Of a stretch of DNA of 28,631 bases, positions 1-15,764 are shown piece by piece. Position 1 is the stretch's first letter. Every line of letters begins with the position of its first letter. The notes beneath the pieces were generated by a model. The model worked only from the letters and a program-made list of their open reading frames with translations. It was not told the DNA's origin and searched no databases. The stretch lies in IMG/VR virus record IMGVR_UViG_3300009008_002093, positions 1-28,631 of that record; one strand, written 5' to 3'. Both the position numbers and the translations under genes were made by a program. The DNA comes from a virus.

Positions 1-546
1 ATTCCAGAAGCAACTGGTTTGGATGCATATGAATCTATTTGGTGTTGTGCGTCAGATTGGAACAATGGGGATGGAACGCCGAGACATAACAAACGATTGA
101 ATGAAAATCTTAGATATTTTCAGGAACATTCTGGAGAAAAGGATCTTCTTTGTGTTGCCGGAGATGTTGGAAATATAGATAATCCAGATCCACAGAAAAT
201 TGTTTTTCTTGGAAATTTGGCGGTTCATAAATTAATTTCTCTTTATAAAAAGGCAGATTGGTTTGTTCATCTTGCAGCGCAAGACCATTGCCCAAACGTT
301 GTGGTGGATGCAAAATCCTCTGGGTGTAGAATTGTATGTTCTGGCTCTGGGGGAACTCCAGAGATTGCAGGAAAAGATGCAATTATTATTGTTGACGAAA
401 ATGAGCATGGATATGATGCATGGGACTATAATGTTCCGACTACTTTGGATTTTTCACGAAGTATGAACGGTCATTATGAAGTGGACTTGTCAATAAATTT
501 TGTGGCAGATAGGTATTTGGAGTTTTTGGAGAAGCAAATAAAATGA
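1..546 (+). CDS. Glycosyltransferase, GT-B/GT4-like, 5'-truncated by window edge
   Basis: The frame is open from base 1, so only the C-terminal part (about 181 residues) is visible. A TTG at 19 and later ATGs are internal codons rather than starts. The visible part carries the donor-binding half typical of GT4-like enzymes: a segment VHLAAQDHCPNVVVDAKSSG followed by GSGGTPEI, which corresponds to the family pattern of a conserved acidic residue, an ASG-like turn and GG-x-PE. It would transfer a sugar from a nucleotide donor in the cytoplasm. Its stop overlaps the next gene's ATG (ATGA), so the two are translationally coupled. The exact donor and acceptor cannot be inferred. Confidence 0.8.
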   Translation: MPEATGLDAYESIWCCASDWNNGDGTPRHNKRLNENLRYFQEHSGEKDLLCVAGDVGNIDNPDPQKIVFLGNLAVHKLISLYKKADWFVHLAAQDHCPNVVVDAKSSGCRIVCSGSGGTPEIAGKDAIIIVDENEHGYDAWDYNVPTTLDFSRSMNGHYEVDLSINFVADRYLEFLEKQIK

Positions 547-1148
547 GAATGTTAAAAGATTATGAAACCTATGATGATTATGTGGAGCATCAAAAAGAGA
601 AAACTTTGGACCCGGTGAGGCGAAAGAAGTGGTTGGGGGAAGAGTGGGAATTAAAATTAAATGGATTCACCGAGATTTTTCAAAGGTGTAAAGACATATT
701 AAAGCCGGGGATGAAGGCTCTTTGTATTGGTGCCCGCACAGGCCAAGAAGTGGTTTCAATGATAGATTTGGGGATTGATGCAATTGGAATTGATCTTGTT
801 CCAAATGAACCTCATGTGATTTTGGGAGACATGCATAATTTAGATTTTGATGATGCGTCTTTTGATTTTGTATTTACGAATGTTTTTGACCATTCATTGC
901 ATCCAGATAAGATGGTTTCTGAGATAGAACGAGTTTTGATTCCCGGTGGATTCTTTCTTTTACAGATGCAGGTACAGCAGGAAATTGACGCCTATGCAGA
1001 GAATGAAATAGATTCGGTTGATGGTGATATTATACCTTTATTTAAAGGTTCAGATGTATTTGTCAATACAGGAATGCCGAGAAATTTTGCCGGAATGAAT
1101 TGGGAGATTTTGGTAAAGAAGAGGAAACAAGAAGATGCAGAGAAGTGA
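543..1148 (+). CDS. Class I SAM-dependent methyltransferase
   Basis: The 201-aa protein has a Rossmann methyltransferase core of the Methyltransf_11 type. Motif I is ALCIGARTGQEV (about residues 79-90), followed by an acidic beta-2 end (GIDLVPNEP), a post-II DMHNLDFDDASFDFVF segment and a motif IV/VI region ending in RVLIPGGFFLLQ. The start is the ATG in the ATGA overlap with the upstream glycosyltransferase. It probably methylates a sugar or sugar-linked intermediate, given its position among glycosyltransferases. The methyl acceptor cannot be determined. The 3' end overlaps the next gene by 14 nt. Confidence 0.85.
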   Translation: MRMLKDYETYDDYVEHQKEKTLDPVRRKKWLGEEWELKLNGFTEIFQRCKDILKPGMKALCIGARTGQEVVSMIDLGIDAIGIDLVPNEPHVILGDMHNLDFDDASFDFVFTNVFDHSLHPDKMVSEIERVLIPGGFFLLQMQVQQEIDAYAENEIDSVDGDIIPLFKGSDVFVNTGMPRNFAGMNWEILVKKRKQEDAEK

Positions 1149-1791
1149 ATTGATATGCGATATTGATGAGCTAGAGGTTCCTGAAGAATATCAGAGAATA
1201 TGGAATGATATTAATCTTCCTATTCAGGAAGAGAAAGGCCGAACTCATGATTTGTCACAAGATGAATTAGCCAAGTGTCTGTCGGAACTATCACGCAGAG
1301 GATATTATTTGGTGTCCATTGCAGAGCAGTTTGGTGCAAAGAACATTGCAGAGGTAGGCACCGCCCAGGGCTGGCAATTTTATACGTTTGCTCACTATGC
1401 AGCCAAGGTTGATGGATTTGTCTGGAGTTGTGATATTCGTGATGTACGAGATAAGGATTATGCTCAAAAATATTCAGACGTAACAGATTTTGTTTCTGGA
1501 ACGAGTGAACAGATGGCAGAGACAATTAAGTTTTCTGGCGAAAAAATTGATATGTTTTATATCGACGGCTGGCATGAACGTGGCTGGGTATTGCAGGATG
1601 TGGAACGACTAAAGGAATTTCAGTCCGATGATCCTATTTGGATTTTTGATGACTATGATGAACGGTTTGGGTGTTCTTTTGATATAGATGAAATCTGTGA
1701 ACAGATACCCGACCATTATATATATCGGGTAGGAAATGCAGCCAGTGGCCAACCCAATCATCAGGTTGCCGTGTTTGGGAGGATTGAATGA
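1135..1791 (+). CDS. Class I methyltransferase, Methyltransf_24-like
   Basis: The 218-aa protein has a motif I-like IAEVGTAQGWQFYTF, an acidic WSCDIRDVRD, then IDMFYIDGWHERGWVLQDVE, where the D-G-x-H pattern is typical of Methyltransf_24 proteins. A FDDYDE motif follows (WIFDDYDERFG). Such enzymes often act as O-methyltransferases in polysaccharide gene clusters. Here the third conserved segment is rich in acidic residues that could bind a metal. It is the second methyltransferase in a row, so the glycan may carry more than one methyl group. The start ATG lies inside the previous gene (14-nt overlap) and the stop forms ATGA with the following gene. Confidence 0.8.
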   Translation: MQRSELICDIDELEVPEEYQRIWNDINLPIQEEKGRTHDLSQDELAKCLSELSRRGYYLVSIAEQFGAKNIAEVGTAQGWQFYTFAHYAAKVDGFVWSCDIRDVRDKDYAQKYSDVTDFVSGTSEQMAETIKFSGEKIDMFYIDGWHERGWVLQDVERLKEFQSDDPIWIFDDYDERFGCSFDIDEICEQIPDHYIYRVGNAASGQPNHQVAVFGRIE

Positions 1792-2750
1792 ATATTCTGT
1801 TTTATTCTAGTCATGATGATATTTCTGCGGGGTCGTATAGAATTTGGGTTCGGGATTTGAATGATTATTTTAATGATGTTGGAGTTTCTTCTAAAGTTGC
1901 AATTCGCGACCTTCCCGATCTTACTAATTTTGATGTTGTTATTTTTGGAAAGTCTGATTATGTGTTGGCATCAAAAATTAAAAAGTCTTATTCAAATAAA
2001 AAGATTGGTGTTATTAATCATCGCGCTGATGTCAATATTGATGTTGATTTTATAATTGTTGGTTCTATTGAAGAACAGGCAAGTCTTTCGTATTATGATA
2101 ATGTGTTTTTGTTTCCTTTGATTGAGAAAATGTATATTGATTCTTCTTTATATAAGAATCATCAACAGGCAGACACGTTAAGAATAGGGTTTCATGGCCA
2201 TCCGCCACATATTTCTAAATTTGTACTGGGAATGAATGCAGCCATTGAAGAGTTATCAAAACAAATTTCTGTAGAATTTTTAGTTGCCTCGTCTGGCCCG
2301 ATTAATAATACATTTCTTCCAAATGCAAATGTTATTGGAACACAATGGAATTTTGATACAATTGCAGATTCCTTATTGTCTTGTGATATTGGCGTAGTTC
2401 CGAACGCAGTAATTAGCGGGGTAGATTCAGAGGCACCAAATCAGGGATTATTTGATACGGACTATAGTATGAGGTTTAAAAATAAATCAAACGCCGGCCG
2501 TGCATTTGTATTTCATCAGTTAGGGATTCCTGTGGTTGCTGACATTACTCCAAGCCATTTTCATGTTATGGGAAATCCAGATTGTGGTTTTTTGGTTGCC
2601 GACAAGGCTGGGTGGTACAAGGCACTTTTGAAGTTGACTAACTATAGGACGAGGCAGGAAATTGCTGATAATGCAAAGAAAGAATTTGATAGATTATATG
2701 ACCCTCACGATTGGGCTCGAAAACTTTATAGGGAAATAGAGGAGATATAA
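1788..2750 (+). CDS. GT-B fold glycosyltransferase
   Basis: The 320-aa protein begins MNILFYSSHDD and has a glycine-rich N-terminal turn (SAGSYRIWVRDL), as in GT-B enzymes. The C-terminal half has a SNAGRAFVFHQLGIPVVAD segment, a typical donor-site loop, and a final helix with DWARKLYREIEE. A purine-rich GGGAGGA ribosome binding site sits directly before the ATG, within the ATGA overlap with the methyltransferase gene. No single GT family could be assigned by eye, so sugar specificity is unknown. Confidence 0.7.
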   Translation: MNILFYSSHDDISAGSYRIWVRDLNDYFNDVGVSSKVAIRDLPDLTNFDVVIFGKSDYVLASKIKKSYSNKKIGVINHRADVNIDVDFIIVGSIEEQASLSYYDNVFLFPLIEKMYIDSSLYKNHQQADTLRIGFHGHPPHISKFVLGMNAAIEELSKQISVEFLVASSGPINNTFLPNANVIGTQWNFDTIADSLLSCDIGVVPNAVISGVDSEAPNQGLFDTDYSMRFKNKSNAGRAFVFHQLGIPVVADITPSHFHVMGNPDCGFLVADKAGWYKALLKLTNYRTRQEIADNAKKEFDRLYDPHDWARKLYREIEEI

Positions 2751-2751
2751 A

Positions 2752-3498
2752 ATGAGTCAAGGAGTTTTATATATTGCGTTTGGTGATAATTTTTTAAAGG
2801 AACTTACGTTATCTGCCGAGTCGGTTAAGCGATTTTGTCCTGATTTGCATATTACAGTATTTTCAGATAAGCCTGTTGACTCTGAATTTATTGATGAGTG
2901 TAGAATAATTGAAGTAAATCATCTAAGACCTAAGATTGATTATATAATGCACGCCCCGTATGAGAGAACTTTGTTTTTGGATACGGATACGATTATTGAT
3001 TATGACATCGGTGATATGTTTGATATTCTTGATAATTTTGATATTGCCCTGGCTCATGATTTGGCCAGAAAGCGAAAGAAGTATTCTGACACGATACCCG
3101 AATATGGTGAAATTCCTTATTCATTTTCGGAGTTGAATACGGGCGTCATTGCATTTAAGAAGAATGAGAAGACGGACCTCCTTTGGGAGCGTTGGCGTGA
3201 AAATTTCTATAAGTGGTATGATATTGTGCCTTGGGATCAGCCGTCATTTCGGGTTTCTTTGTGGCAGACCACATTAGAAGATGATTTAAAGTTGTATGTA
3301 TTTCCAGTTGAATACAATATCCGAAGTAAAGCCAATCGAGAGAAGAACCGGCTAATGCATGATGAGTTTGGAGATGAACATTTGACCCCCCGCATTTATC
3401 ATATGCACGCAGACCCGAGAATTAATCAAGGAACGTATGAGGTTGAAAGTGTGGAACAGGCATTGGAATTTTGTAAGAAAAATTTTGTGGAGTATTGA
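2752..3498 (+). CDS. GT-A glycosyltransferase with DxD motif (GT8/glycogenin-like)
   Basis: The 248-aa protein resembles GT8-type nucleotide-diphospho-sugar transferases: an N-terminal YIAFGDNFLKEL, then FLDTDTII with the metal-binding D-x-D at residues 77-79, then SELNTGVIAFKKN, matching the conserved FN(A/T)G(V/I) element of GT8-like folds, and WDQPSF. A late IYHMHADPR could supply the usual C-terminal metal-binding His. It likely transfers hexose or an amino sugar from a UDP or GDP donor with retention, inferred from the fold. It begins one base after the previous stop. Confidence 0.75.
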   Translation: MSQGVLYIAFGDNFLKELTLSAESVKRFCPDLHITVFSDKPVDSEFIDECRIIEVNHLRPKIDYIMHAPYERTLFLDTDTIIDYDIGDMFDILDNFDIALAHDLARKRKKYSDTIPEYGEIPYSFSELNTGVIAFKKNEKTDLLWERWRENFYKWYDIVPWDQPSFRVSLWQTTLEDDLKLYVFPVEYNIRSKANREKNRLMHDEFGDEHLTPRIYHMHADPRINQGTYEVESVEQALEFCKKNFVEY

Positions 3499-3499
3499 T

Positions 3500-4294
3500 G
3501 TGAATATTTTTGATGAATTGATACATAATAAGACAGTTGCTCTTGTGGGCCCTGCTGCGTATATGGTTGGTTCTGGTTATGGTAATGAAATAGATTCTCA
3601 TGATGTTGTGGTTCGTCTTAATCGGGGAATTGAATGTGTTGAAGAACATTCAGAGGATGTTGGTTTTTTGACTGATGTTTTATATTCGTGTTTAATAGAA
3701 AAACCAGCCAACGCTGGAAAAGTAGATCCAGAATATCTTTTTGATTGTGGAGTGCAGTATGTTGTTACTCCCCCGAACTCCGATTTTCAAGGAGTAGCCC
3801 GTGTTACTGATTTTCATGAGTTAGTTAATCTAAAGATGGTTGATAAAATTCTTGAAAATATTCCAATGAGAATTATTGACCATATGTTTCATACAAAATT
3901 AGCAAAGGATGTTAGCTGTAAACCTAATACTGGGTTTCTTGCTATATATGATTTGTTAAGATTTAATCCGTCGCGTCTTTCTGTTTATGGTTTTAGTTTT
4001 TATTTGGATGGTTTTATTTCTGGAATAAAGTCGGGCGTAGAAGAGGAACAAAATTTAACAGAAGAACAATTTGCAAACCAATGTTTTAATTCAAAGAGAC
4101 ATGTGCAGAAGAATATGTGGGAATATGCCAAAAAAACTCTTATAGATACTCCTGTAGTTTCTTTAGATCCTGTTTTATCTTTTATTTTGAATATGGAAAC
4201 ATTTGACAAAGGTGAGTTTTTAAAATATGAAAATATTCATTCCAATAAAAGAGAATTCTCAGAGAGTTCCAAAAAAGAATTTCAGAACTCTTAA
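3500..4294 (+). CDS. GT29 sialyltransferase-like protein
   Basis: The 264-aa protein has recognisable sialylmotifs. Motif L (about residues 13-43) contains VALVGPAAYM, then GSGYGNEIDSHDVVVRLN, which is very close to the animal GT29 pattern (G-x-S/G-x-x-x-x-x-x-YG-x-IDSHD-x-V-x-R-x-N). Motif S (about 139-164) contains KPNTGFLAIYDLL then LSVYGFSF. A possible VS-like His-Glu pair is H201/E208. GT29 enzymes transfer a sugar acid from CMP-sialic acid, and the next gene encodes a CMP-sugar synthetase. A GTG start at 3500 with GGAG 8-12 nt upstream is chosen over an in-frame upstream codon at 3437 that lies inside the preceding gene. The C-terminus overlaps the next gene by 68 nt. Confidence 0.8.
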   Translation: MNIFDELIHNKTVALVGPAAYMVGSGYGNEIDSHDVVVRLNRGIECVEEHSEDVGFLTDVLYSCLIEKPANAGKVDPEYLFDCGVQYVVTPPNSDFQGVARVTDFHELVNLKMVDKILENIPMRIIDHMFHTKLAKDVSCKPNTGFLAIYDLLRFNPSRLSVYGFSFYLDGFISGIKSGVEEEQNLTEEQFANQCFNSKRHVQKNMWEYAKKTLIDTPVVSLDPVLSFILNMETFDKGEFLKYENIHSNKREFSESSKKEFQNS

Positions 4295-4877
4295 TGGAGT
4301 TCCTCTTTACAAACACACGCTATACAAACTCAAAGAATTTGATGTTTATGTTGATACCGATAGTGAATCTCTTGAACAAGAGATCCGTGAAGATGTCAAA
4401 TGTAAACATGTAATTCCTTATCAGAGGTCTTTATCGTTAATCGGAGATGATGTATCTGTTTGTGATTTGATTGATGATTTTGTTTTTCGCTATGGGTCTG
4501 AAGAAAATAATATTTGTCAGCTACATGTTACAAGCCCATTTTTGGATGTCAAAATTTTAAAGAATGCCATGGCCATGCTCGACCGGGGATATGATTCTGT
4601 GGTGTCTTGTAATCAAGTTCAATCAAGATTTTGGAGAAAAGAGTCATATGGATATTGCCCGGTAAATCATAACCCGGTTAAACTAGAGCAGACTCAGGAC
4701 TTGCCTATTTTTTATGAGGAGAATTCTGTCTTCTATATAATTAATGTTGATTTGTTTCGTAAGACAAAAATGAGAATTGGTATGAATCCCTATTTTTATC
4801 CATTAAGTTTTCCGATTAATCTGGACATTGACACAGAGGATGATTGGGAATTGGTAACAAAGGTAATAAAAAAATGA
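4227..4877 (+). CDS. CMP-sugar (acylneuraminate/Kdo-type) cytidylyltransferase
   Basis: The 216-aa protein opens with IPIKENSQRVPKKN, the nucleotide-binding signature of the NeuA/KdsB cytidylyltransferase family (usually IPAR-x-GS-x-R-x-P-x-KN). It also has QLHVTSPFL (about residues 98-106) and a C-terminal FPINLDIDTEDDWELV, the family's metal-binding DIDT/E ending. It should couple CTP to a 2-keto-3-deoxy sugar acid, releasing pyrophosphate and giving the donor for the adjacent GT29-like transferase. Whether the acid is a sialic-, legionaminic- or Kdo-like sugar is not readable. The Ala-Arg-Gly of the usual signature is replaced by Lys-Glu-Asn, a variation seen in several family members. Confidence 0.85.
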   Translation: MKIFIPIKENSQRVPKKNFRTLNGVPLYKHTLYKLKEFDVYVDTDSESLEQEIREDVKCKHVIPYQRSLSLIGDDVSVCDLIDDFVFRYGSEENNICQLHVTSPFLDVKILKNAMAMLDRGYDSVVSCNQVQSRFWRKESYGYCPVNHNPVKLEQTQDLPIFYEENSVFYIINVDLFRKTKMRIGMNPYFYPLSFPINLDIDTEDDWELVTKVIKK

Positions 4878-5608
4878 GATTATTATGGCAACAGATTCCA
4901 TCTACAATTATTTCTGAGATTTTTTCTTCTGTTGATAATTTTGATGGTGTAGTAATAGACACCGAGCATAGTCCTTTTAATGTGGAAACATTATTTTCTT
5001 GCATTCAGGTGGTCAAGTTATCTGGAAAGAAATGTTTTGTTCGATTGTCATATTTGGATAAAACATTGACCAAGATTTGTTTGGATGCCGGATGTGATGG
5101 GTTGATTTTTTCTACGGTTGAAACTGCATCTCAAGCAAAGGATATAATTTCTTATTGTAGGTATCCGGGTAAAAATTATTTTATTGAGGGAGGCTCTTGC
5201 GTAAGCCATTCTCCCCCACATGGAAGACGCGGCCAGGGACTGGTGCGAGAAAATGGTTGGGGCGTGCAGCCATTGGGAGAACATAGACCAATATTGATAG
5301 GTCAAATTGAAACCGAGGTGGGGGTTAATAAAATTGAAGAGATTGTCCAAACAAATGCATTCGATATGTTTTTGATTGGGCCATATGACCTAAGTGCAAG
5401 CCTTGGTTGTGTTGGAGACTTTGAGGATTATAGATATAAAGAAGCCATAGATAAAATAAAAGAGAGTGTTTCAGAAAGCTCTTTGGGTATTCATATTCCT
5501 AGAAATGTAGAATCTAGTATTGGTAATTATTCTAATTTTGGCTTTGTTGCCCTTGGTATGGATACCACGTTTTTACTGGAGAGAATAGAGGAGATTGGCA
5601 ATGGATAA
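4874..5608 (+). CDS. HpcH/HpaI-family pyruvate aldolase
   Basis: The 244-aa protein aligns by eye with class II pyruvate aldolases such as E. coli HpaI. Conserved points are DTEHSPFN (E31, H32), FVRLS (R57), GQIETEVG with metal ligand E146, LIGPYDLSASLG with metal ligand D172, and GMDTTFL near the end. The catalytic His, Arg, Glu and Asp all appear retained, so activity is expected: reversible aldol addition of pyruvate to an aldehyde, giving a 2-keto-3-deoxy acid. The ATG at 4874 in an ATGA overlap is preferred over an in-frame start at 4844 inside the preceding gene. About 16 extra residues follow the YPG segment (near residues 99-115) compared with E. coli HpaI. Confidence 0.85.
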   Translation: MRLLWQQIPSTIISEIFSSVDNFDGVVIDTEHSPFNVETLFSCIQVVKLSGKKCFVRLSYLDKTLTKICLDAGCDGLIFSTVETASQAKDIISYCRYPGKNYFIEGGSCVSHSPPHGRRGQGLVRENGWGVQPLGEHRPILIGQIETEVGVNKIEEIVQTNAFDMFLIGPYDLSASLGCVGDFEDYRYKEAIDKIKESVSESSLGIHIPRNVESSIGNYSNFGFVALGMDTTFLLERIEEIGNG

Positions 5609-6638
5609 ATTTAAAGAAGAGATTATGAAAAATGCGCCGTCACCATTTCTTGAGATCGAAAATATCGAAAAGAAATTTTATCAATTGGTGATTAGTGATG
5701 AATGGAATGAATTGCAAGCCAAATTTAATGATTGCCATGATATTTATGTTCTTGGTCATGGTGGAAATTTAGCTATTGCGGACCATGCAGCAATTGATAT
5801 TTCAAGACTTAGTAATGGGACAAAAAATGCAATATGTCCCGCCAGCGGTGTTGTAGTTACTTCATATATTAATGATACCAATTGGGATCAATGGATGGTA
5901 CAATGGTTGAGAAATGTAACTTCCGGGAAAACTATGGAACAAAAACGAAAATCATTGATTTTGGGATATTCTTCATCTGGAACATCTAGGGATTTGATTA
6001 AGGCATTTCAATGGGGATATTCTAATGAATTGCAATTAGGAACAATTACATCATTTCCTTTTACAGAAAGAATACCAACTTTGACAGAGGTTGCTATGGG
6101 ATGTAATTTTTATCATACTGCCGAGGTACTATCATTATTTCTTCAATATCAGTTGACGCATGGTTCGGGCAAAGCGTGCCCGCCAATTGGAGGCAATCGT
6201 CCAGAGGATATTGCTCATTATGATTCTGATATAGTTCCTGAAATTAGAGAGCATAGTTTTTCAGATGAGACAAAAAATATTGCATTGGATTTTGATGGAG
6301 TAATTCATAAAAACTCAAAGGGATATTATGATGGAACAATATATGATACTCCTGTGGATGGTGCCAAAGAAGCATTAAAGAAATTGTCGAAGACTTATGA
6401 TGTTGTTATTTTTACTGTTAAGGCCAAGCCAGACAGGGGGCTGGTTAACGGTAAGACGGGCACCCAATTGGTTTGGGAGTGGCTCAAGAAATATGATATG
6501 GATAGGTATGTGACAAAAGTTACTTCAGAAAAGCCTCGGGCTGTCGCATACATTGACGATAAATCAATTCATTTTGATAATTGGAAAATGTGTTTAGATA
6601 ATTTAGGGAGTATTGAAAATGAAAGATCCGTTACATAA
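5601..6638 (+). CDS. SIS-domain sugar isomerase fused to HAD phosphatase
   Basis: The 345-aa protein has two domains. Residues about 1-215 form a SIS domain with GHGGNLAIADHAA, resembling the phosphosugar site of GmhA-type isomerases, and GYSSSGTSRDLIKA. Residues about 225-345 form a HAD-like phosphatase with the nucleophile motif ALDFDGVIH, a motif II-like VVIFTVKAK and a motif IV-like VAYIDDKSIHF. The likely role is isomerising a ketose phosphate to an aldose phosphate and dephosphorylating it or a downstream product. Next to an aldolase and a CMP-sugar synthetase this supports sugar-acid synthesis. The ATG at 5601 with AGAGGAGA upstream is chosen over TTG at 5595. The gene overlaps the aldolase by 8 nt. 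Confidence 0.8.
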   Translation: MDKFKEEIMKNAPSPFLEIENIEKKFYQLVISDEWNELQAKFNDCHDIYVLGHGGNLAIADHAAIDISRLSNGTKNAICPASGVVVTSYINDTNWDQWMVQWLRNVTSGKTMEQKRKSLILGYSSSGTSRDLIKAFQWGYSNELQLGTITSFPFTERIPTLTEVAMGCNFYHTAEVLSLFLQYQLTHGSGKACPPIGGNRPEDIAHYDSDIVPEIREHSFSDETKNIALDFDGVIHKNSKGYYDGTIYDTPVDGAKEALKKLSKTYDVVIFTVKAKPDRGLVNGKTGTQLVWEWLKKYDMDRYVTKVTSEKPRAVAYIDDKSIHFDNWKMCLDNLGSIENERSVT

Positions 6639-7665
6639 TAGAAAGATTGTAGAGCGAGATTATTTATTTGATATTGATGAAGTGTGGGTGTCTTCGTCTC
6701 CTATAAAAATTTTGTGCGCTCATTTTTCACCATTTAAAAATGAACTTGAGGCGACAGATTATCCATTGTTTTTGACTAAGATGTTTCCTAATGGCACTAT
6801 TCATGCAACATACGACAAGGGAGGCAGCAACTTTCTTTCTTTTGAACTTAATGGGAACGAAGTGTCTGTTTTGGACGATATTGATTCTTCGTATGATATT
6901 ATTATCGGCCGATCTTCTGTATTTAATAATATGGCAGCCAGGCATAATCATAAAAGAGCATTAGACAATTCTGGGTTTAAGGTCAATATTAAGCCGATGG
7001 GCTTGGGCGGAAATAAAAAATATTGTGATTTTTGGTTTGATGATGGTTTTTTATTTTGCCCACCATCGCCACTTTATAGAAAAAAAGTAAAAGAAATTAT
7101 TGAAGATGATAATTTTAAAAAGAAGGATTTTGTTTTATTTTCTGGAAAGATTGGAAGAGAAAAGAATCAGCTAGATTTTGTTGAAAAAGTTGATCCCGTT
7201 CTTTGTGATAATTTGACTTTTGTTTTTGTTGGCAATGATACCGCTGACCCGGATTATGTTCAGACTTTAGCTAAATTGTGTGAACAAAAAAATATTTCTT
7301 ATTCTATAATGGGCGTGGTTGATTTTATAAATCAAATGCCATACTACACAGCGCATAGTAAATTACATGTTATAAATTGTGACCCAAGGCCATTTGGCCA
7401 GCCATATGATCCCATTCCAAGAGTTCTTGGTGAATGTGCAATATCGGATACCCACACTATTTGTTCAAAAACTACACTTTTTAATGATGATGTGTCAAAG
7501 TATGTTACTTCATATAACCACGAATCTTCTAATAGTTTAAATGATGTATTTGCCAAGTCTTTAGATATTGATACATTGGGCTATCATTATGACTTAATTA
7601 CTATGGAAGAGAAGTGTTGTGATATGACTTGGAGAATTTTGAAGGAGGCTGGGAGTTTGTCATGA
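6619..7665 (+). CDS. GT-B glycosyltransferase, GT4-like
   Basis: The 348-aa protein has an N-terminal acceptor domain and, from about residue 170, a donor domain beginning VLFSGKIGREKNQLDFVE, where the G(K/R)-x(3)-EKN pattern is a hallmark of GT4-like enzymes. It continues with LTFVFVGND and ends in a donor loop region around PIPRVLGECAISDTH. ATG 6619 preceded by GGGAG at 6607-6610 is chosen over an in-frame TTG at 6613. It overlaps the SIS-HAD gene by 20 nt. Acceptor and donor are unknown. Confidence 0.75.
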   Translation: MKDPLHNRKIVERDYLFDIDEVWVSSSPIKILCAHFSPFKNELEATDYPLFLTKMFPNGTIHATYDKGGSNFLSFELNGNEVSVLDDIDSSYDIIIGRSSVFNNMAARHNHKRALDNSGFKVNIKPMGLGGNKKYCDFWFDDGFLFCPPSPLYRKKVKEIIEDDNFKKKDFVLFSGKIGREKNQLDFVEKVDPVLCDNLTFVFVGNDTADPDYVQTLAKLCEQKNISYSIMGVVDFINQMPYYTAHSKLHVINCDPRPFGQPYDPIPRVLGECAISDTHTICSKTTLFNDDVSKYVTSYNHESSNSLNDVFAKSLDIDTLGYHYDLITMEEKCCDMTWRILKEAGSLS

Positions 7666-8282
7666 AAAAAGCACTTTTGATTAGCCCGCACCCAGATGAT
7701 GCTTTTATTGGATGCTCTGGTTTTGTTGTTAAAAATGAGCATAACTTTGACATTGATGTGTGTTGTTTTGCTACAAAAAATATAAATCCGTCTGAAGAGA
7801 CTCGCAAATATGAAGAGCTTTCTTCTTGGAAAATTATTAACAAAAAAGTTAATGTTTCTTTTTTTGATGGTGATGATACGAAATTATTTAGGAATCAAAA
7901 TAAAATCATAAGTCATATTGAGAATCTAGTCACCCAAAATGAGTATGACTATGTGTTTACTCCATACCCAGAAGATACCCATCAGGATCATAGAACTGTT
8001 TCTGAAGCAACATTGTCGGCATGTAGGTATCAGAATAAGATATTATTTTATGAGACACCTTCGACTACCGCGTTTCATCCCAATCTTTTTGTTCAGTTGA
8101 GTGGTGATGAAGCAAACCAAAAGATGTTGGGTTCCTGTGAGTATGAGTCTCAGATTCTTGGTTCTGAGAAATATCAAATTACATTAGAAGAATACATTCA
8201 GGCTAAACTTTTGAGTAATGGTGCAATGAGTCGTGTTTGTAAATATGCAGAAGGCTTTGTTCTTTATAAGGAAGTAATATGA
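7662..8282 (+). CDS. PIG-L/LmbE-family zinc deacetylase
   Basis: The 206-aa protein has the family signature PHPDD at residues 9-13 (zinc ligands H10 and D13, catalytic Asp) and a second metal motif DTHQDH at 105-110. These proteins remove N-acetyl groups from GlcNAc-type sugars or related intermediates. Here it probably deacetylates a nucleotide- or lipid-linked amino sugar so that the free amine can be re-decorated. ATG 7662 lies in an ATGA overlap and is preceded by GGGAG, which supports it over an upstream in-frame TTG at 7629. Confidence 0.85.
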   Translation: MKKALLISPHPDDAFIGCSGFVVKNEHNFDIDVCCFATKNINPSEETRKYEELSSWKIINKKVNVSFFDGDDTKLFRNQNKIISHIENLVTQNEYDYVFTPYPEDTHQDHRTVSEATLSACRYQNKILFYETPSTTAFHPNLFVQLSGDEANQKMLGSCEYESQILGSEKYQITLEEYIQAKLLSNGAMSRVCKYAEGFVLYKEVI

Positions 8283-8869
8283 GAGTTGCGATACATCAGC
8301 CGGAACATTTTCCATATATGGGGTTTTTTCAAAAGATGGAAGCGTGTGATTTATTTGTTATTCTTGACGACGTAAAATTCAAAAAGAATAATTTTCAAAA
8401 TAGGAACAAATTTTTAAATACATCGGGAGATGAAGAGTGGTTTACTGTTCCGATAGAAAAATCTGCACCATCAAAATTAATTAAGGATGTTGCGGTAAGT
8501 AATGTTCCAAATTGGAGAAAAAAAATTTCAAACAAAATTGTACAGAATATGAAGATTGATGTTTCTTTTGTCTATGAGTCTGAGAGTCTTATAGATATAA
8601 ACATGAAAAGTATAGAATGGTGTATGAATAAGTTAAAGATAGAAAAGCCCATAGTGTTTGCAAGCGAATTGGCTGCCGCTGGCTCCAAGTCTGAATTGTT
8701 GGCAAATATAATAAGAACTGTTGGTGGTACAGAATATATTAGTGGGCCTAGTGGAAAAGATTATTTGGATATGAAATGGTTTGACGGGATTGACGTTAGT
8801 TATTTTAGTCCTGTAGTTGATAATTATTATTCTGCATTGTATAATATTATGTTAGAGAAATTGAAATGA
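8279..8869 (+). CDS. WbqC-like family protein
   Basis: The 196-aa protein matches the WbqC family pattern: VAIHQPEHFPYMGFF at the N-terminus, then LFVILDDVKFKKNNFQNRNK (the family's LDD-x-Q/K-x-x-x-x-x-x-x-NRN element), W-x-x-KI and a C-terminal YISGPSGKDYLD. WbqC-like proteins occur in O-antigen and other glycan clusters; their biochemical role is not established, although an acyl- or glycyl-transfer role has been considered. It sits directly downstream of the deacetylase with an ATGA overlap, so it may act on the amine that enzyme frees. That link is inference. Confidence 0.85.
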   Translation: MRVAIHQPEHFPYMGFFQKMEACDLFVILDDVKFKKNNFQNRNKFLNTSGDEEWFTVPIEKSAPSKLIKDVAVSNVPNWRKKISNKIVQNMKIDVSFVYESESLIDINMKSIEWCMNKLKIEKPIVFASELAAAGSKSELLANIIRTVGGTEYISGPSGKDYLDMKWFDGIDVSYFSPVVDNYYSALYNIMLEKLK

Positions 8870-9882
8870 AAAAAATTATCTATGTATATAGAAGGCATAC
8901 TGGTGGAACATATATTATGTTGTACCAATCTTTTATAGTTCTTCGTTCATTGGGAATTCCTTCATCTGTTCTTCATGTGTCAGAAGGGTTGGAGAATATT
9001 AAAGATTCTGTTTTAATATTTTTAAAACATAAAGCAGAACAATCTCTTATTGATAAATTAAAGAATAATAATAACATAGTTATATTGATTCCGGGCGACG
9101 GAAATGTTTTTGAGATGACTTCGTATTTCAGGAATATTTGCGATGTGGATGGCGTTGTTGTTGCTAGTGATATATATAAAGCTAAATTAGAATCTTTAAG
9201 TAATACCTTTAGAATTGCGGTCATACCACATAACTATGATTATTTTTTAAATTCTGATATGTTTAAAGAAGAACGAGATAAAGAGTTTAGATTGTTTTTT
9301 GGAGGCGGGGTTTCAAGCGCAGGGCCAACTCAAGGAGATTTGGGTTTGAGGCAGTATCCTAATTTTTATGAAGATTATTTTATGCCATTGCACTACGCAC
9401 TAAAAGATAATTCAATTAATAATTCTGATGTTACTTTTGATGATAGACACAAGATTGTTTTAGATGCCGAGTTCAATCAAGATGTTTTGTCTCATATAAT
9501 GTCGGATGCAAACCCATCAAAATATAATTGTCATTATGCTGTTCGCTGCCCAAAAATCGCAGATACGTCGCATTATTGGATTGCAAAGTCTGCAACAAAG
9601 GTAGTTACTGCTGCCGGGTCAGAAGCTAATATCATAACTTCATTAGACCCTCCGGTTAGAGTTTTAATTGACGAAAGTTATCCGTATTCAATAGACACGG
9701 AAACTGATGAGTTTTTGTCTGATCCAGATCTGGTATGTATGGATATGATTGAGTATGCTAAAACTACATATAAAACTAGGATTTGGTATGATGCTTTAGA
9801 TGTGATGCGAGAAATTAAAAAGAAAGTATCAACCCAAAGCGTTACTAAAAAATATTTGTCTTTTGTTGAGGAGTTGCTTTGA
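8866..9882 (+). CDS. Probable GT-B glycosyltransferase
   Basis: The 338-aa protein starts with a hydrophobic beta strand (KKIIYVYRRHTGGTYIM) like the first Rossmann strand of GT-B enzymes. It has a central FRLFFGGGVSSAGPTQGDL glycine-rich linker between domains and a C-terminal YWIAKSATKVVTAAGSEA followed by an LDPPVRVLIDE strand that resembles a donor site. It lacks a clear GT4 EKN motif. The call rests on fold-like features and the cluster context, so a non-glycosyltransferase Rossmann protein is possible. Both ends are ATGA/TTGA overlaps. Confidence 0.5.
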   Translation: MKKIIYVYRRHTGGTYIMLYQSFIVLRSLGIPSSVLHVSEGLENIKDSVLIFLKHKAEQSLIDKLKNNNNIVILIPGDGNVFEMTSYFRNICDVDGVVVASDIYKAKLESLSNTFRIAVIPHNYDYFLNSDMFKEERDKEFRLFFGGGVSSAGPTQGDLGLRQYPNFYEDYFMPLHYALKDNSINNSDVTFDDRHKIVLDAEFNQDVLSHIMSDANPSKYNCHYAVRCPKIADTSHYWIAKSATKVVTAAGSEANIITSLDPPVRVLIDESYPYSIDTETDEFLSDPDLVCMDMIEYAKTTYKTRIWYDALDVMREIKKKVSTQSVTKKYLSFVEELL

Positions 9883-10463
9883 AATTTATAAATCCAAATA
9901 TAGCTTCTAGTTATAGACAGAAAGAAATGGGTCGGTTTTTATACGATGCTGTTATAGAATCTAATGCGAAAACGATTATAGATATAGGAATATTAAACGG
10001 ATATTCTACCGTTTGCTTGGCATTAGCTGCAAAAGAGACATCCGGCGTTGTTTATGCTTATGATCTTTTTGATGACTATAATTATACGAATTCTAACTAT
10101 GATGTGGTTGTATCTAATCTTAAAAACTATTCTGTTTTAGACTACGTTAAGTTGGAAAAGAAGTCTTTTGATAATTGGATTGAGGATGATCCAGTTTTTG
10201 ATGTGTTGCATGTTGATATTTCCAACACAGGAGAAATTGTAGAAAAATTATATGCAAACTTTAAGAATGTCCTTGACTCGGGTAGCCGAATTTTTTTTGA
10301 AGGGGGGTCTAAGAAAAGAGATTTTCAAGATTGGATGGTTGAATATAATATGAAAAAAATTAATGATATAAGTGTGCCGTTCAAGGTTCTTGCTGAAGAT
10401 TTTTATTATGACAAAATGCTCGGCCGATATTTTTCGCCATGTATTTCTGAGTTGGGAGGTTAG
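9879..10463 (+). CDS. Methyltransf_24-like class I methyltransferase
   Basis: The 194-aa protein has motif I IIDIGILNGYSTVCLA, an acidic VVYAYDLFDDYN, and VFDVLHVDISNTGEIVEKL, where HVD(I/G) is the metal or substrate segment of Methyltransf_24 proteins, then SRIFFEGGSKKRDF. The start is a TTG at 9879 forming TTGA with the previous stop, with GAGGAG at 9868-9873 upstream; no ATG occurs before the conserved core. It is the third methyltransferase of the island. Its acceptor is unknown. Confidence 0.7.
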   Translation: MKFINPNIASSYRQKEMGRFLYDAVIESNAKTIIDIGILNGYSTVCLALAAKETSGVVYAYDLFDDYNYTNSNYDVVVSNLKNYSVLDYVKLEKKSFDNWIEDDPVFDVLHVDISNTGEIVEKLYANFKNVLDSGSRIFFEGGSKKRDFQDWMVEYNMKKINDISVPFKVLAEDFYYDKMLGRYFSPCISELGG

Positions 10464-10464
10464 T

Positions 10465-11652
10465 ATGTCGAAAGTTTCATTTTTGGATTTAGGAAGACAG
10501 CCAATTGCAAATGGATTTTTAACAGAAGAACAGTTTGATGCTGAATTTTTTTATAACCTTTCGGTTGGGTTTGATGAAGAAACTTGTCTTGTTACACAAA
10601 TGAATTATGTTAAGCCAGAGATGATGTTTAATGATACATATGCATATCGTGGGTCAATGTCAAAAACAATGGTAAATCATTTTGCAAAATTTAGTGAAGG
10701 TATAAAAAACTCTTTGGATTGGGAACCATCTGTACCAGCCCGACCGCCCAAGGTTTTGGAGATTGGTTCTAATGATGGAGTATTTCTTAAAAATTGGGAT
10801 AAGGATACTACTTTTGCCGTAGAGCCTTGTTCTAATTTTGCAGAAGAGACAAATGCAATGGGATACAGAACCTATTCTGAATTTTGGGATAGAAATCTTG
10901 CAGAAAAAATTAGTATTGAAAATGGATATATGGATTTAATTTTTGCTGCCAATTGTATCTGTCATATACCAGACCTTGACGAAACCTTTTCCGCAGTTGC
11001 CTCGTTATTGAAACCGCATGGGATGTTTGTATTTGAAGATCCGTCGTTGGCCAGTATGATTAATAATAATTCCTATGACCAGATTTATGATGAGCATTCT
11101 CATGTTTTTTCTGTGATGGCATTGTCTAAAATTCTGAAAAGAAATGGTCTTGAGATTGTTCGAGCCGATTCATTGAGCGTTCATGGCGGATCAAATAGAA
11201 TCTGGGCACAGAAGATTGGTCATAATACACGACCAGACATTGATCGACACCTTGATTATGAGCGGGTGATTGGCTTGGATAATATTGAGTGCTTTAACCG
11301 ATTTGCCGAAAGGGTTGCTCAGTCTAAGGAAGATTTGAGGAATATGCTGACTCGATGTGCGGACCAAAATAAAAAAGTAATCAGTTATGGCGCAACGTCC
11401 AAGTCAACTACAGTTTTTAATTATTGTGATACTGGAACCGATCTAATATCATGCATTACAGACACTACTCCAGAAAAGCAACATAAGTATTCGCCGGGTA
11501 TGCATATTCCAGTTATACCTCAAGAAGATTCTGATGTGTTTGATTATGCGTTTTTGGGTGCATGGAATTTTGCTGAAGAGATTAAGAAGAAGGAACTTTA
11601 TTTTGGTGGTAGGTTTATTACTCATGTTCCTTCTGTGAGGATTGTTGAATGA
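10465..11652 (+). CDS. NDP-hexose C-methyltransferase-like protein
   Basis: The 395-aa protein follows the three-part layout of sugar C-methyltransferases (TylC3/CloU type): an N-terminal region with LDLGRQPIANGFL, a central SAM domain with VLEIGSNDGVFL (motif I, about 97-108) and FVFEDPSL, the conserved YDQIYDEHSHVFS (catalytic region), and a C-terminal KVISYGATSKSTT with the GA(T/S)xK signature. Known members methylate a ring carbon next to a keto group of a 4-keto-6-deoxy NDP-sugar. The usual four zinc-binding cysteines are mostly missing; only C41 remains in place. ATG 10465 with GGGAGGT just upstream is preferred over starts inside the previous gene. Confidence 0.85.
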   Translation: MSKVSFLDLGRQPIANGFLTEEQFDAEFFYNLSVGFDEETCLVTQMNYVKPEMMFNDTYAYRGSMSKTMVNHFAKFSEGIKNSLDWEPSVPARPPKVLEIGSNDGVFLKNWDKDTTFAVEPCSNFAEETNAMGYRTYSEFWDRNLAEKISIENGYMDLIFAANCICHIPDLDETFSAVASLLKPHGMFVFEDPSLASMINNNSYDQIYDEHSHVFSVMALSKILKRNGLEIVRADSLSVHGGSNRIWAQKIGHNTRPDIDRHLDYERVIGLDNIECFNRFAERVAQSKEDLRNMLTRCADQNKKVISYGATSKSTTVFNYCDTGTDLISCITDTTPEKQHKYSPGMHIPVIPQEDSDVFDYAFLGAWNFAEEIKKKELYFGGRFITHVPSVRIVE

Positions 11653-12086
11653 TGAATTATAAATTTGATGATGTTTCATGTTATGAGGATGATCGGGCTC
11701 AAAGAATTTTTGATGTGTTTGAAAAAACGCCGGGTCAGATCAATGTGTCTTATGTCAATTCAACAAAGCATGTCGTTGCTTGGCATAAACATAATGTCCA
11801 AACAGATTATTGGTGTTGCCTTAAAGGGTCTTTTAAGGTTGGATTGGCTTCGCCTAAAACTGGAATTCCACAAGAAGCTGGAGATTTTTATGATATTTCA
11901 TTTGAGTATTTGTCTGATAAAAACTTTAGAGTTCTTGAGATTCCGCCGGGAATATATCATGGATATAAAGCATTAGAACCTAATTCTATTTTGATGTATT
12001 ATTTAACTGAAAAATATAACCCAGAAGATGAGATTAGAACGCCTGTTGGATTTTTTGGTGAAACTTGGGAAACAGAAAATAAATGA
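11649..12086 (+). CDS. RmlC-like dTDP-sugar 3,5-epimerase (cupin)
   Basis: The 145-aa protein is a short cupin with the RmlC family layout: AWHKHNVQTDYWCCLKGSFK in place of the RG-x-H-x-Q segment, LEIPPGIYHGYKAL matching IP-x-G-x-x-HGF, and LTEKYNPEDEIR matching the Y-x-PEDE ending. RmlC-type enzymes epimerise C3 and/or C5 of 4-keto-6-deoxy sugar nucleotides. At 145 residues it is shorter than typical RmlC (about 180), so a single-site epimerase or related cupin isomerase is possible. Two in-frame ATG codons (11649, 11652) make the exact start uncertain. Confidence 0.75.
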   Translation: MMNYKFDDVSCYEDDRAQRIFDVFEKTPGQINVSYVNSTKHVVAWHKHNVQTDYWCCLKGSFKVGLASPKTGIPQEAGDFYDISFEYLSDKNFRVLEIPPGIYHGYKALEPNSILMYYLTEKYNPEDEIRTPVGFFGETWETENK

Positions 12087-12514
12087 TGAGAACTATTGAT
12101 GACGTTAAGGTGATGTATTTTGATGCATTTACAGATAGTGGCGATGTTGGGTGGGGAACTTTGGTTCCTTTAGAGTTTTCAAAACATCTTCCATTTGAAC
12201 CAAAGAGGCTTTTTTATGTTTATGCTGTATACACTAAGAATAAAAGAGGAGAACATGCACATTACACGACGGAGCAAATTTTAATATGCCTTCGCGGCCG
12301 TTGTGGTGTTATATGTAGGGATGGCGAAAGATCAAAAAGTGTTTTGTTAGATTCTCCTAGTGTTGGAGTATATATTCCAGAAATGATTTGGGATGAGCAG
12401 GTGTATATGTCAGAAGATACTGTTTTGTTGATACTTTCAAGCACCGAATATAACAAACTTGATTATATAGAAGATTGGAGTTTATATTTAAAGGAGCAGA
12501 AGAATTTAGTATGA
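12083..12514 (+). CDS. FdtA/QdtA-like dTDP-4-keto-6-deoxyglucose 3,4-ketoisomerase
   Basis: The 143-aa cupin has KRLFYVYAV then RGEHAHYTTEQILICLRG, matching the family element RG-x-H-A-H-x(5)-Q with catalytic histidines at 58 and 60, and VYIPEMIWDEQ matching IP-x-x-x-W-x-(E/Q). The enzyme moves the keto group from C4 to C3, giving a 3-keto sugar that a DegT aminotransferase can aminate. The residue after Trp is Asp rather than the frequent His. It is translationally coupled to the RmlC-like gene (ATGA), and both act on the same class of intermediate. Confidence 0.85.
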   Translation: MMRTIDDVKVMYFDAFTDSGDVGWGTLVPLEFSKHLPFEPKRLFYVYAVYTKNKRGEHAHYTTEQILICLRGRCGVICRDGERSKSVLLDSPSVGVYIPEMIWDEQVYMSEDTVLLILSSTEYNKLDYIEDWSLYLKEQKNLV

Positions 12515-13149
12515 CTACTATAATAGATATTCCGTTTCCACATATTTCTATAGATAATTTTATTCCCTCAGAGGCTTTGGTCAGAGCAGCCGCAACAAGT
12601 TTTGATGTTGTTTCCGATGAAGATTGGGTGAAATATGGGAAAGGGGATAATCAGATTCAATACTGTTCAAAAAATCGCCAACTTACAACTCCGCCCGCGC
12701 TGCTTGTTTTGGATTACATTGCTTCTCATTTTGACCCTAATGTGATATTCGAGGGATTTACAGATAAGACATTTCCAGACACATCTTATTATGGGGGAGG
12801 TATGATGGTAACTCCTATTGGGGGATATTTGGGTATGCATGTTGATGCCAAGGTTCATGGGTTACATCCCAAATGGGTGAGGGAATATAGTGCCGTTTTG
12901 TGTATTTCTGAAGACTATAATTCTTCTTTTGATTTATTACTTCATGATGGAGAACGAAGCCACACAAAAGTTCCATATAAGTTTAATCGACTGAATGTGT
13001 TTAAATGTTCTGAGAATTCTTGGCATGGATTTCCTGACCCCACTAAACACTCTGAAAGAAAAACATTAGGCGTGATGTATTGGTCAGCAAAGACTCAAGA
13101 TGTTGGGGATGCGTTCCGGGCAAAGTTTAATAATGATTTGGAGTTCTAA
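12511..13149 (+). CDS. 2OG-Fe(II) dioxygenase (prolyl-4-hydroxylase-like)
   Basis: The 212-aa protein has the double-stranded beta-helix iron site H-x-D...H: YLGMHVDAK (H110, D112) and SWHGFPDP (H172), with R183 of HSERKTLGV placed to bind 2-oxoglutarate. MMYWSA-like residues after it fit the last strand. Such enzymes hydroxylate, epimerise or dehydrogenate using oxygen and 2-oxoglutarate. Lying between a ketoisomerase and a reductase it may hydroxylate the sugar or a protein, but the substrate is inferred from position only. ATG 12511 forms ATGA with the preceding stop; an in-frame start at 12475 would overlap that gene heavily. Confidence 0.85.
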   Translation: MTTIIDIPFPHISIDNFIPSEALVRAAATSFDVVSDEDWVKYGKGDNQIQYCSKNRQLTTPPALLVLDYIASHFDPNVIFEGFTDKTFPDTSYYGGGMMVTPIGGYLGMHVDAKVHGLHPKWVREYSAVLCISEDYNSSFDLLLHDGERSHTKVPYKFNRLNVFKCSENSWHGFPDPTKHSERKTLGVMYWSAKTQDVGDAFRAKFNNDLEF

Positions 13150-13868
13150 TGAGAAAAATTATTATTTCTGGTGGAGATGGCTCTTTTGCTAAGGCCCTTA
13201 TAGATAATAATAAAGACTATGAGTTGTATCCTCTCAGTAGAAATGAGATGAATGTTACGAATATGAATGATATTGTGGATAATATACAGAGAATATCTCC
13301 TGACATTTTTATTCATGCGGCTGCACTTACTCGTCCAATGAAAACTCATAACGAGTTTCCCGAGTTAAGCATTCGTTCTAATATCATAGGGACTGGAAAT
13401 GTTACTTTGGCTTGTATGGAGATGGGGATAAAGTTGATTTATATATCAACGGACTATGTGTATCCCGGCAATGCTGGTAATTATAAAGAATCAGATTCTT
13501 TATTTCCTGTTAATAATTATGCTTGGTCAAAGCTGGGCGGTGAATGCGCTGTTCGCATGTATCCAAATTCTTTGATATTGAGGATGGGAATGTGTGAAAC
13601 TCCATATCCACATGAAGGTGCTATTGTTAATGCAAAAAAAAGTATGATAACAAGTCAAGATTCTGCAAAACTTGTGTTTCGACTTTTAGACCAAATAGGA
13701 ATTATTAATGTGGGCGGTGAGTCTATTTGTATCTATGATTTTGTCAAAAAATTAAATCCAAAAATCAAGAAGATATACCTAGAAAATATTGATGGAGTTG
13801 ATATGGCAAAGGACTGTTCCATGAATTGTGATAAATTGAAGGATTGTTTAAATGATACCCCTTTTTAA
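13149..13868 (+). CDS. RmlD-like NDP-4-keto sugar reductase (SDR)
   Basis: The 239-aa protein is an extended-type SDR: nucleotide-binding ISGGDGSFAKAL at the N-terminus, HAAALT (about 56-61), ISTDYVYPG (99-107) and the catalytic pair Y124/K128 in NNYAWSKLGGE. The STDYV(F/Y)-x-G and YG-x-(S/T)K arrangement is that of dTDP-4-dehydrorhamnose reductase. It probably reduces the C4 keto group of the epimerised sugar. It is shorter than RmlD (about 290 aa), so the substrate-binding C-terminal part is reduced. Its last 17 nt overlap the aminotransferase gene. Confidence 0.8.
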   Translation: MRKIIISGGDGSFAKALIDNNKDYELYPLSRNEMNVTNMNDIVDNIQRISPDIFIHAAALTRPMKTHNEFPELSIRSNIIGTGNVTLACMEMGIKLIYISTDYVYPGNAGNYKESDSLFPVNNYAWSKLGGECAVRMYPNSLILRMGMCETPYPHEGAIVNAKKSMITSQDSAKLVFRLLDQIGIINVGGESICIYDFVKKLNPKIKKIYLENIDGVDMAKDCSMNCDKLKDCLNDTPF

Positions 13869-14760
13869 TATTAATAATTATGTTGTGGATACATCAAAGT
13901 TTGGCCATTCTTTGCATGGGTCTGTAGTTCAGGAACTCGAAGAAGCCATTGCTGATTATGTTGGTGCTAAATATGCGTGTTCGGTTTCTAGTGCGACAAG
14001 TGCAATTTTTTTGGCTTTTCTAAACAAAAGCCTTACGGTTTCGGTTCCAAGTATGATCCCTCCGGTTGTGTTAAATGCTCTAATAAATTCCGGCAATCAG
14101 ATTAAATTTATTGATAATACGGAGTGGGTTGGTCATTCGTATGTTCTTCATGATTTTGGAAATTATAAGATTATAGATTCCGCACAAAAAATAGTAAGAG
14201 GCCAATTTGATAAAGAGGCAAATCCAAATGATTTGATGTTTTTTAGTTTCTATCCAACAAAACCTGTCGGGGGTTTGGACGGTTGCGTGATAGTTTCGGA
14301 TGATTTTGATAAAATTCAATGGTTCAAAGAAGCAACCATGAATGGAATGAGTACAGAAACGAATAGTTGGGAAAGGGGTATAAAGTTTCCTGGGTGGAAG
14401 ATGTATATGAATTCATTTCAAGCACATGTTGCCTTGCAGAATTTTTATAAATTAGAGGAAAAAAAGAAAAGACTTAAAGAGGTCCGAGAGTATTATAATG
14501 AGGCATTTGGATTAACTAATACTAGCGAACATCTATATCGAATTGATGTTGACGACAGAGAATTAGTCATGTCTAATTTAAATGATTCTGGCGTATCATG
14601 TGGGATTCATTATTCTTCTATGCATTTACACCCTATATATAAATTAGATTCTGTTAAATTGGTTGGGACAGAACAAAAAGAAAAAACAACTCTTAGTATA
14701 CCGTATAATGAAAAGTTGAGTGATGATGATTTGAATTGGGTGGCGGGGTGTTTGAGATGA
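13852..14760 (+). CDS. DegT/DnrJ/EryC1/StrS aminotransferase, first copy
   Basis: The 302-aa PLP enzyme has the PLP lysine K137 in FSFYPTKPVGGLDGC, preceded by IIDSAQ (D109) that replaces the usual IEDAAH, and VSSATSAIFLAF in the cofactor phosphate region. Family members transfer an amino group from glutamate to a 3- or 4-keto sugar nucleotide. It follows the FdtA-like ketoisomerase and RmlD-like genes, so a 3-amino or 4-amino product is plausible. At 302 residues it is shorter than most members (about 370), with shortening in the loop between residues 60 and 110. Confidence 0.8.
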   Translation: MIPLFNINNYVVDTSKFGHSLHGSVVQELEEAIADYVGAKYACSVSSATSAIFLAFLNKSLTVSVPSMIPPVVLNALINSGNQIKFIDNTEWVGHSYVLHDFGNYKIIDSAQKIVRGQFDKEANPNDLMFFSFYPTKPVGGLDGCVIVSDDFDKIQWFKEATMNGMSTETNSWERGIKFPGWKMYMNSFQAHVALQNFYKLEEKKKRLKEVREYYNEAFGLTNTSEHLYRIDVDDRELVMSNLNDSGVSCGIHYSSMHLHPIYKLDSVKLVGTEQKEKTTLSIPYNEKLSDDDLNWVAGCLR

Positions 14761-15764
14761 AAAAAGTTTTGATTTTTGGCGGAACGGGTTCTTTGGGAAT
14801 TTCTTTGATTCGTAGGTTGTTGCCCGATAATTCGATTTACATATATTCACGGGATGAGGCAAAGCATTGGACTTTAAAGAATCGGTATAAGGATTCTAAA
14901 AATTTGAATTTTTTTGTTGGGGATATTCGCGATTCGCAAAGGGTTTCTGACGTTATATCTAAAGTAGATGCAAATATTATAATTATCGCGGCTGCATTAA
15001 AACAAGTAGATACCTGTGAAATTTCTCCTGAAGAGAGTATTAAGACTAATATTTTGGGCCCATCTATTGTAGTTAATTCTGTTATAGCAAATAAAACTAA
15101 TTTATCATGTGATACCATTCTTTTTGTTAGCACAGATAAGGCGTGTGAACCCGTTAATGTTTATGGGATGTCAAAGGCAATATCAGAGAGAATTGTTACG
15201 AGCAATGAGATGTTTCATTCCGATATTAGATTTTTAGGAGTTAGATATGGAAATGTTCTTGAGTCGAGGGGAAGTATTATTCCATTATTTAAATATCAAT
15301 CATTGAATTCAGAATTTTTGACAGTCACTCATAAAGATATGACTCGATTTGTGATGACCTTAGACCAAAGTGTAGATTTAATTTTGAATACCATTGAACA
15401 TGGGTCTTCTGGTGAAATTTGGATTCCGAAATTGTCTTCTATGAACATATTGGATTTGGCAAATATTTTTGCAAAGAAGTATGATAAGAAAATTAAAATG
15501 ATACCAATTAGGCCCGGTGAGAAAATTGCAGAAAAATTAATTGGGTTGTCTGAGTCTTTAAGAGCAAGAGAAGATTTCGGGCATTATATACTTTCCCCTG
15601 CTCATTATATGATTGATTCGGAAAGTTCTAACTTTGAATATACTAGCGCCGATGACGTTTTATCTAGTGTGGCATTAGAACAATACTTAGATAATGATTT
15701 AAATATTATAGAGCAGCCTATGGAAAGTTTTATAGGAAAGAATATTGAGGAGATTAGAATATGA
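14757..15764 (+). CDS. PseB/FlaA1/CapE-like UDP-GlcNAc 4,6-dehydratase
   Basis: The 335-aa SDR has GGTGSLG at residues 8-14, VSTDKACEPVNVYGMSK with T126, D127, K128 and the Y136/K140 pair, then LGVRYGNVLESRGSIIPLF and IRPGEKIAEKLI. These are signatures of inverting UDP-GlcNAc 4,6-dehydratases (PseB, FlaA1, CapE) that make UDP-2-acetamido-2,6-dideoxy-4-keto-hexoses. The downstream DegT protein would aminate this product. ATG 14757 forms ATGA with the preceding stop. The substrate is taken from family membership and has not been shown. Confidence 0.9.
   Translation: MKKVLIFGGTGSLGISLIRRLLPDNSIYIYSRDEAKHWTLKNRYKDSKNLNFFVGDIRDSQRVSDVISKVDANIIIIAAALKQVDTCEISPEESIKTNILGPSIVVNSVIANKTNLSCDTILFVSTDKACEPVNVYGMSKAISERIVTSNEMFHSDIRFLGVRYGNVLESRGSIIPLFKYQSLNSEFLTVTHKDMTRFVMTLDQSVDLILNTIEHGSSGEIWIPKLSSMNILDLANIFAKKYDKKIKMIPIRPGEKIAEKLIGLSESLRAREDFGHYILSPAHYMIDSESSNFEYTSADDVLSSVALEQYLDNDLNIIEQPMESFIGKNIEEIRI

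Follow-up and report, generated by a model that had tools for sequence, protein, structure and literature searches.

How does a virus that carries genes for activating and transferring an acidic sugar obtain that sugar? To our knowledge, every CMP-activated sugar acid with a known pathway comes from one of the PEP-dependent synthases NeuB or KdsA, and genome screens for such sugars look for the genes of these two enzymes. The window analyzed here, the entire IMG/VR virus record IMGVR_UViG_3300009008_002093 (28,631 bases), is a fragment of a marine virus genome, in which four contiguous, overlapping genes on the + strand (positions 3500-6638) encode a GT29-like transferase, a CMP-sugar-acid synthetase (CMPS), an HpcH/HpaI pyruvate aldolase and a SIS-HAD fusion protein (Table 1). 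Together, these genes are probably a compact version of a module that occurs widely and serves to make, activate and transfer an ulosonic (2-keto sugar) acid. This content and contiguity had been proposed in an earlier, sequence-only reading of the locus, and the gene calls, Pfam profiles, HAD models and Foldseek searches agree with it.

Table 1. Features of the putative module and of its conserved upstream neighbors, in window coordinates
Feature	Coordinates	Strand	Evidence and remarks
Putative glycosyltransferase	1788..2750	+	No Pfam match; conserved upstream neighbor; homologues in the same place in L005-L012, L016, L059, L062 and L067
Putative nucleotide-diphospho-sugar transferase	2752..3498	+	PF03407, 4e-6; conserved upstream neighbor; same position in L016, L062, L067 and others
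GT29-like (sialyltransferase-type) glycosyltransferase	3500..4294	+	PF00777, 3.2e-9, sialylmotif-L region
CMPS (NeuA/PseF-like cytidylyltransferase)	4227..4877	+	PF02348, 8.9e-15
HpcH/HpaI pyruvate aldolase, 244 aa	4874..5608	+	PF03328, 9.7e-21; ATG at 4874 overlaps the CMPS stop
SIS-HAD fusion	5595..6638	+	SIS sugar-phosphate isomerase domain, residues ~20-200; HAD phosphatase domain, residues ~218-338

Surface-glycan genes are densely clustered on the + strand across bases 1-18338 of the window, and the remainder holds phage core genes, including that of a T4-type RNase H. The same virus is represented by two further records (G001 and G002), whose sequences agree with the window at 100% along 15.6 kb; one of them, of 34 kb, extends further upstream than the window. 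Two other regions deserve mention in their own right. Positions 11649-17589 encode FdtA-like proteins, an RmlD-like reductase, two DegT aminotransferases, a CapD/PseB-like dehydratase and a formyltransferase, a gene content that suggests a second sugar pathway, for a formamido sugar. At positions 26901-27977, amid the phage core genes, lies a gene similar to HODM_asu (haem-dependent oxidative N-demethylase alpha subunit; PF11927, 2.4e-36), which is unusual for a virus.

The open reading frame of the GT29-like transferase is open from position 3437, with a GTG start codon at 3500, immediately after the stop codon upstream. Its PF00777 score of 37 bits exceeds the cut-off of 23, with the match covering a 53-residue part of the protein only. 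Homologues lie directly upstream of CMPS in other loci, such as L016 and L154. In L005-L007 (6834-8432) and L008-L012, a 2-hydroxyacid dehydrogenase is fused to the GT29-like transferase or encoded directly upstream of it. The CMPS belongs to the CTP_transf_3 family (PF02348, 55.5 bits against a cut-off of 22.6) and contains a D200-x-D202 metal motif, both aspartates of which are retained in all members; its relatives among solved structures are NeuA proteins. The scores fall far short of the NCBIfam cut-offs for named enzymes, both for PseF, the best model (64.7 of 205.7 bits), and for KdsB (19.5 of 255 bits).

The aldolase is likewise a clear family member (PF03328, 74.5 bits against a cut-off of 25), and among solved structures E. 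coli HpaI is its best match (1.9e-18). The sequence-only reading had noted that H32, R57, E146 and D172 are kept as in the HpaI active site; these residues do align to H45, R70, E149 and D175 of the E. coli enzyme and are invariant across 11 viral aldolase homologues. By family analogy, E146 and D172 would be the metal ligands, R57 the pyruvate-binding arginine and H32 the histidine base. The NCBIfam equivalog models for HpaI, GarL and RhmA score 100 of 369, 93 of 407 and 74 of 441 bits, respectively, all below their cut-offs. The subfamily to which the window aldolase belongs has a conserved loop, RGxGLVRxNxWG.

No match was found in a Pfam profile search of the SIS-HAD fusion. Its N-terminal SIS half has a GmhA/KdsD-type fold, as judged from Foldseek matches of a predicted model (pLDDT 70.5) to 2i2w (4.2e-7) and 2xhz (1.6e-6), and its C-terminal HAD half matches phrog_1238 (6.4e-13) and, weakly, HAD-IIIA/GmhB models. 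Residues H64 and D68 match in position the histidine and aspartate of cellular GmhA-like SIS proteins (L140 and L141); later residues align unclearly.

The association of the aldolase with the cytidylyltransferase in viruses is not due to chance. In searches of viral contigs, every aldolase locus had a close CMPS, and the loci found with CMPS had an aldolase save in one distant case (L022, 35% identical). As a safeguard against circular counting, viral contigs were also searched with CMPS only (alignment A6). An aldolase lay within 6.5 kb in 47 of the 50 loci so obtained, mostly 0.6-1.4 kb downstream, and the three exceptions (L193-L195) represent one distant virus type with CMPS and a 2-hydroxyacid dehydrogenase (2HADH), without a nearby aldolase. 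Conversely, 52 of 57 aldolase loci contain a cytidylyltransferase, the other five being truncated upstream. Several contigs are near-identical, so these locus counts are inflated and do not represent independent events. In the cytidylyltransferase tree, whose rows were dereplicated at 85%, the window CMPS falls in a clade of 27 members (SH-aLRT 99) from viruses and an Altiarchaeales MAG, all 27 linked to an aldolase. A wider clade of 32 members was at first counted as always aldolase-linked, a count that was weakened by three plasmid relatives without aldolase. As a rough control, aldolases scoring ~103 bits or less (L120-L123) have no adjoining cytidylyltransferase.

One viral locus, L154, joins all the parts in overlapping genes, in the order GT29-CMPS-aldolase-2HADH-SDR-SIS-HAD. 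Among the 50,697 INPHARED phage records, no CMPS relative was found; SIS-HAD was represented solely by a HAD fragment, from a single Gordonia phage, and the aldolase was found only in two unannotated Staphylococcus records (29%), which are probably host DNA. Several other genes occur around the viral aldolases. A small GDPD-like protein (~150 aa, without a Pfam match) is encoded near the aldolase in ~40 loci (e.g., L005 10678-11115 and L015 13695-14150), often accompanied by a HAD-nucleotidyltransferase fusion, and the aldolase cluster of L019 (11400-15605), as read by eye, includes a nucleotidyltransferase-RpiB fusion, a KdsC-like phosphatase and a PfkB-like kinase.

The module is also present in cells (e.g., L025, L114, L115 and L117). 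In a genome scan, close relatives of the aldolase turned up in MAGs of Woesearchaeota, Verrucomicrobia and Altiarchaeales, in every case accompanied by CMPS and a D-2-hydroxyacid dehydrogenase, a gene that many aldolase relatives add and that lay beyond the view of the earlier reading. More distant aldolases, from sampled Verrucomicrobiota, Woesearchaeota and Pseudomonadota genomes, are mostly located beside a NeuA-type or KdsB-type cytidylyltransferase, often together with 2HADH, SIS and phosphatase genes. The KdsB-type enzyme accompanies the aldolase in L129, L138, L139, L140 and L141; L129 and L138 pass the KdsB cut-off of TIGR00466, and L139 and L140 that of PRK13368. Gene orders vary: KdsB-aldolase-2HADH-SDR-HAD in G775, KdsB-Gfo/Idh-SIS-2HADH-aldolase in G691, and aldolase-inositol-phosphatase-2HADH-SIS-Gfo/Idh-KdsB in G806. 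In the cultured marine bacterium Acuticoccus sp. I52.16.1, a plasmid operon encodes the aldolase, CMPS and 2HADH in that order, with single-base overlaps between the genes (aldolase and CMPS: WP_244782418.1 and WP_244782419.1); genes for a HAD hydrolase and an oxidoreductase come next. Plasmids of Thalassovita, Gemmobacter, Sulfitobacter and Pararhizobium (L149, L150, L151 and L153) pair CMPS with 2HADH but have no aldolase nearby. On the Roseobacter-group plasmids of the first three genera, genes for large MptE-like (DUF115) transferases lie close to the pair.

The earlier reading had also stated that no NeuB- or KdsA-type synthase is present, and a profile search of the window, G001 and G002 found none; nor does either gene lie just upstream in the longer same-virus record. 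All of these records are fragments, which makes this absence weak evidence by itself. Among the 14 cellular genomes with an aldolase relative, most have NeuB or KdsA elsewhere. NeuB was not found in three of them (G006, G277 and G317), and in G006, an archaeal MAG with the module, the KdsA family had no match either; MAGs may be incomplete. In L003, L064 and L105, NeuB lies in the same 10 kb as the module, with other NeuA copies nearby, and in L003 it adjoins its own, different NeuA. Besides the module, G691 encodes a true KdsA as well as another KdsB located apart from it, so the module there most likely makes something other than plain Kdo. G806 has WaaA and no KdsA-family match, and we considered that its module might replace KdsA in supplying the Kdo of lipid A. 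This idea was dropped because G691 combines a module of nearly the same gene content with KdsA and a second KdsB, so that the KdsA gap in G806 is probably missing sequence.

The proposed step from SIS to HAD ahead of the aldol reaction is less secure. Relatives of the SIS-HAD protein are frequent in marine viral contigs, where 94 were found and 80 loci were retained, and in ~40 viral loci the protein is encoded directly downstream of the aldolase. In 38 viral loci without the aldolase, including L033-L039, L048-L050 and L088, SIS-HAD adjoins a different cytidylyltransferase. It was therefore rejected as the defining gene of the module, other loci having 2HADH instead; in L187, a stand-alone HAD domain takes its place. 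In two of the loci without the aldolase (L039 and L088), an SDR gene directly precedes SIS-HAD. Together with the CMPS-2HADH plasmids, these 38 loci indicate that the parts of the module can separate.

In the proposed pathway, the SIS domain would isomerize a ketose phosphate, and the HAD domain would remove the phosphate, leaving a free aldose to which the class II HpcH/HpaI aldolase would add pyruvate, or possibly hydroxypyruvate. CMPS would convert the ring form of the resulting ulosonic acid to the CMP-linked form for transfer to a glycan by the GT29-like enzyme. We infer the direction and the substrates of the aldolase and the place of SIS-HAD in the pathway, as well as the order of the steps and the product. 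The core idea, that the aldolase makes an ulosonic acid and CMPS activates it, is supported by their linkage across viruses, bacteria (Pseudomonadota and Verrucomicrobiota) and archaeal MAGs, which also lends strong independent support to the earlier suggestion that an aldolase stands in for NeuB or KdsA. Genomic linkage is no proof that the product of one enzyme serves as substrate for another. As a guess, 2HADH may supply hydroxypyruvate as the donor, since the solved HpcH/HpaI relatives include hydroxyketoacid aldolases. YhcH/DUF386 proteins are also encoded at L023 and L117/L128 and fit the model, given that E. coli YhcH is a Neu5Ac anomerase that supplies the open form of an ulosonic acid to sialate aldolase (PMC8141875).

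Part of this evidence could be read differently. CMPS might activate a conventional nonulosonate or Kdo, supplied by a NeuB or KdsA that the host or an unsequenced part of the virus encodes, the aldolase being a separate decoration or salvage gene. The fragmentary record, the PseB/PseC-like and formyltransferase genes in the window, and the NeuB genes near the module in a few loci and elsewhere in most cellular carriers are all compatible with such a supply. We nevertheless regard it as unlikely, given the consistent aldolase linkage of the window CMPS clade (27 of 27) and of the CMPS-only loci (47 of 50), the genomes in which NeuB or both synthases were not found, and the separate NeuA partner of NeuB in L003. 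Another possibility is that the aldolase works as a cleaving enzyme and degrades or edits an ulosonic acid of the host. HpaI, GarL and RhmA are known as catabolic enzymes. Additionally, YhcH, found near some aldolase copies, is known from sialate catabolism (PMC8141875). The aldolase of the window is nevertheless encoded in a glycan-synthesis setting, in one overlapping operon with CMPS and glycosyltransferases, and among its neighbors we saw no genes for uptake or for a kinase such as a catabolic pathway would have, which leaves cleavage improbable.

We give equally little credence to the reading that the aldolase and 2HADH jointly produce a hydroxy acid other than a sugar, as a decoration of the glycan, while CMPS serves another substrate. 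2HADH does accompany the aldolase in many relatives, and CMPS without the aldolase on some plasmids; the window and ~40 viral loci, however, lack 2HADH and still pair the aldolase with a cytidylyltransferase. Synthesis of an ulosonic acid by the aldolase remains the preferred reading, and the conserved context of the aldolase in its relatives is CMP-sugar-acid biosynthesis rather than some unrelated role.

We found no published description of such an aldolase-based pathway in the open-access literature. It is conceivable, though we put it at somewhat below even chances, that the module represents a third, PEP-independent route to CMP-ulosonates, in which a class II pyruvate/hydroxypyruvate aldolase and a dedicated cytidylyltransferase make an undescribed sugar acid in viruses, bacteria and archaea. 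If so, one class of acidic sugars on the surfaces of marine viruses and microbes would have escaped existing surveys. If 2HADH supplies a hydroxypyruvate donor, some versions of the module would keep the 3-hydroxyl and make Ko-like rather than 3-deoxy acids. The module is a compact, expressible enzyme set with a cultured carrier, which allows a direct test of the idea.

Among known enzymes, HpaI, GarL and RhmA share their family, fold and catalytic residues with the window aldolase, which scores far below all three curated cut-offs and has a biosynthetic gene context. N-acetylneuraminate lyase (NanA) differs from it in being a catabolic Schiff-base enzyme of a separate family. Like the proposed enzyme, NanA is a pyruvate aldolase with a sugar acid as its substrate, and it is aided by the YhcH anomerase (PMC8141875). 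The NeuB-NeuA pathways for sialic, legionaminic and pseudaminic acids resemble the proposed pathway in proceeding from synthesis of a 2-keto acid through its activation by a CTP_transf_3 enzyme to transfer by an enzyme of the sialyltransferase type. In contrast, the module is without the PEP-dependent NeuB and has an HpcH/HpaI pyruvate aldolase linked to the cytidylyltransferase instead. The Kdo pathway (KdsD, KdsA, KdsC and KdsB) shares with it a SIS isomerase, a HAD phosphatase and a cytidylyltransferase, the bacterial modules even using a KdsB-type enzyme, whereas the position of KdsA is taken in the module by the aldolase.
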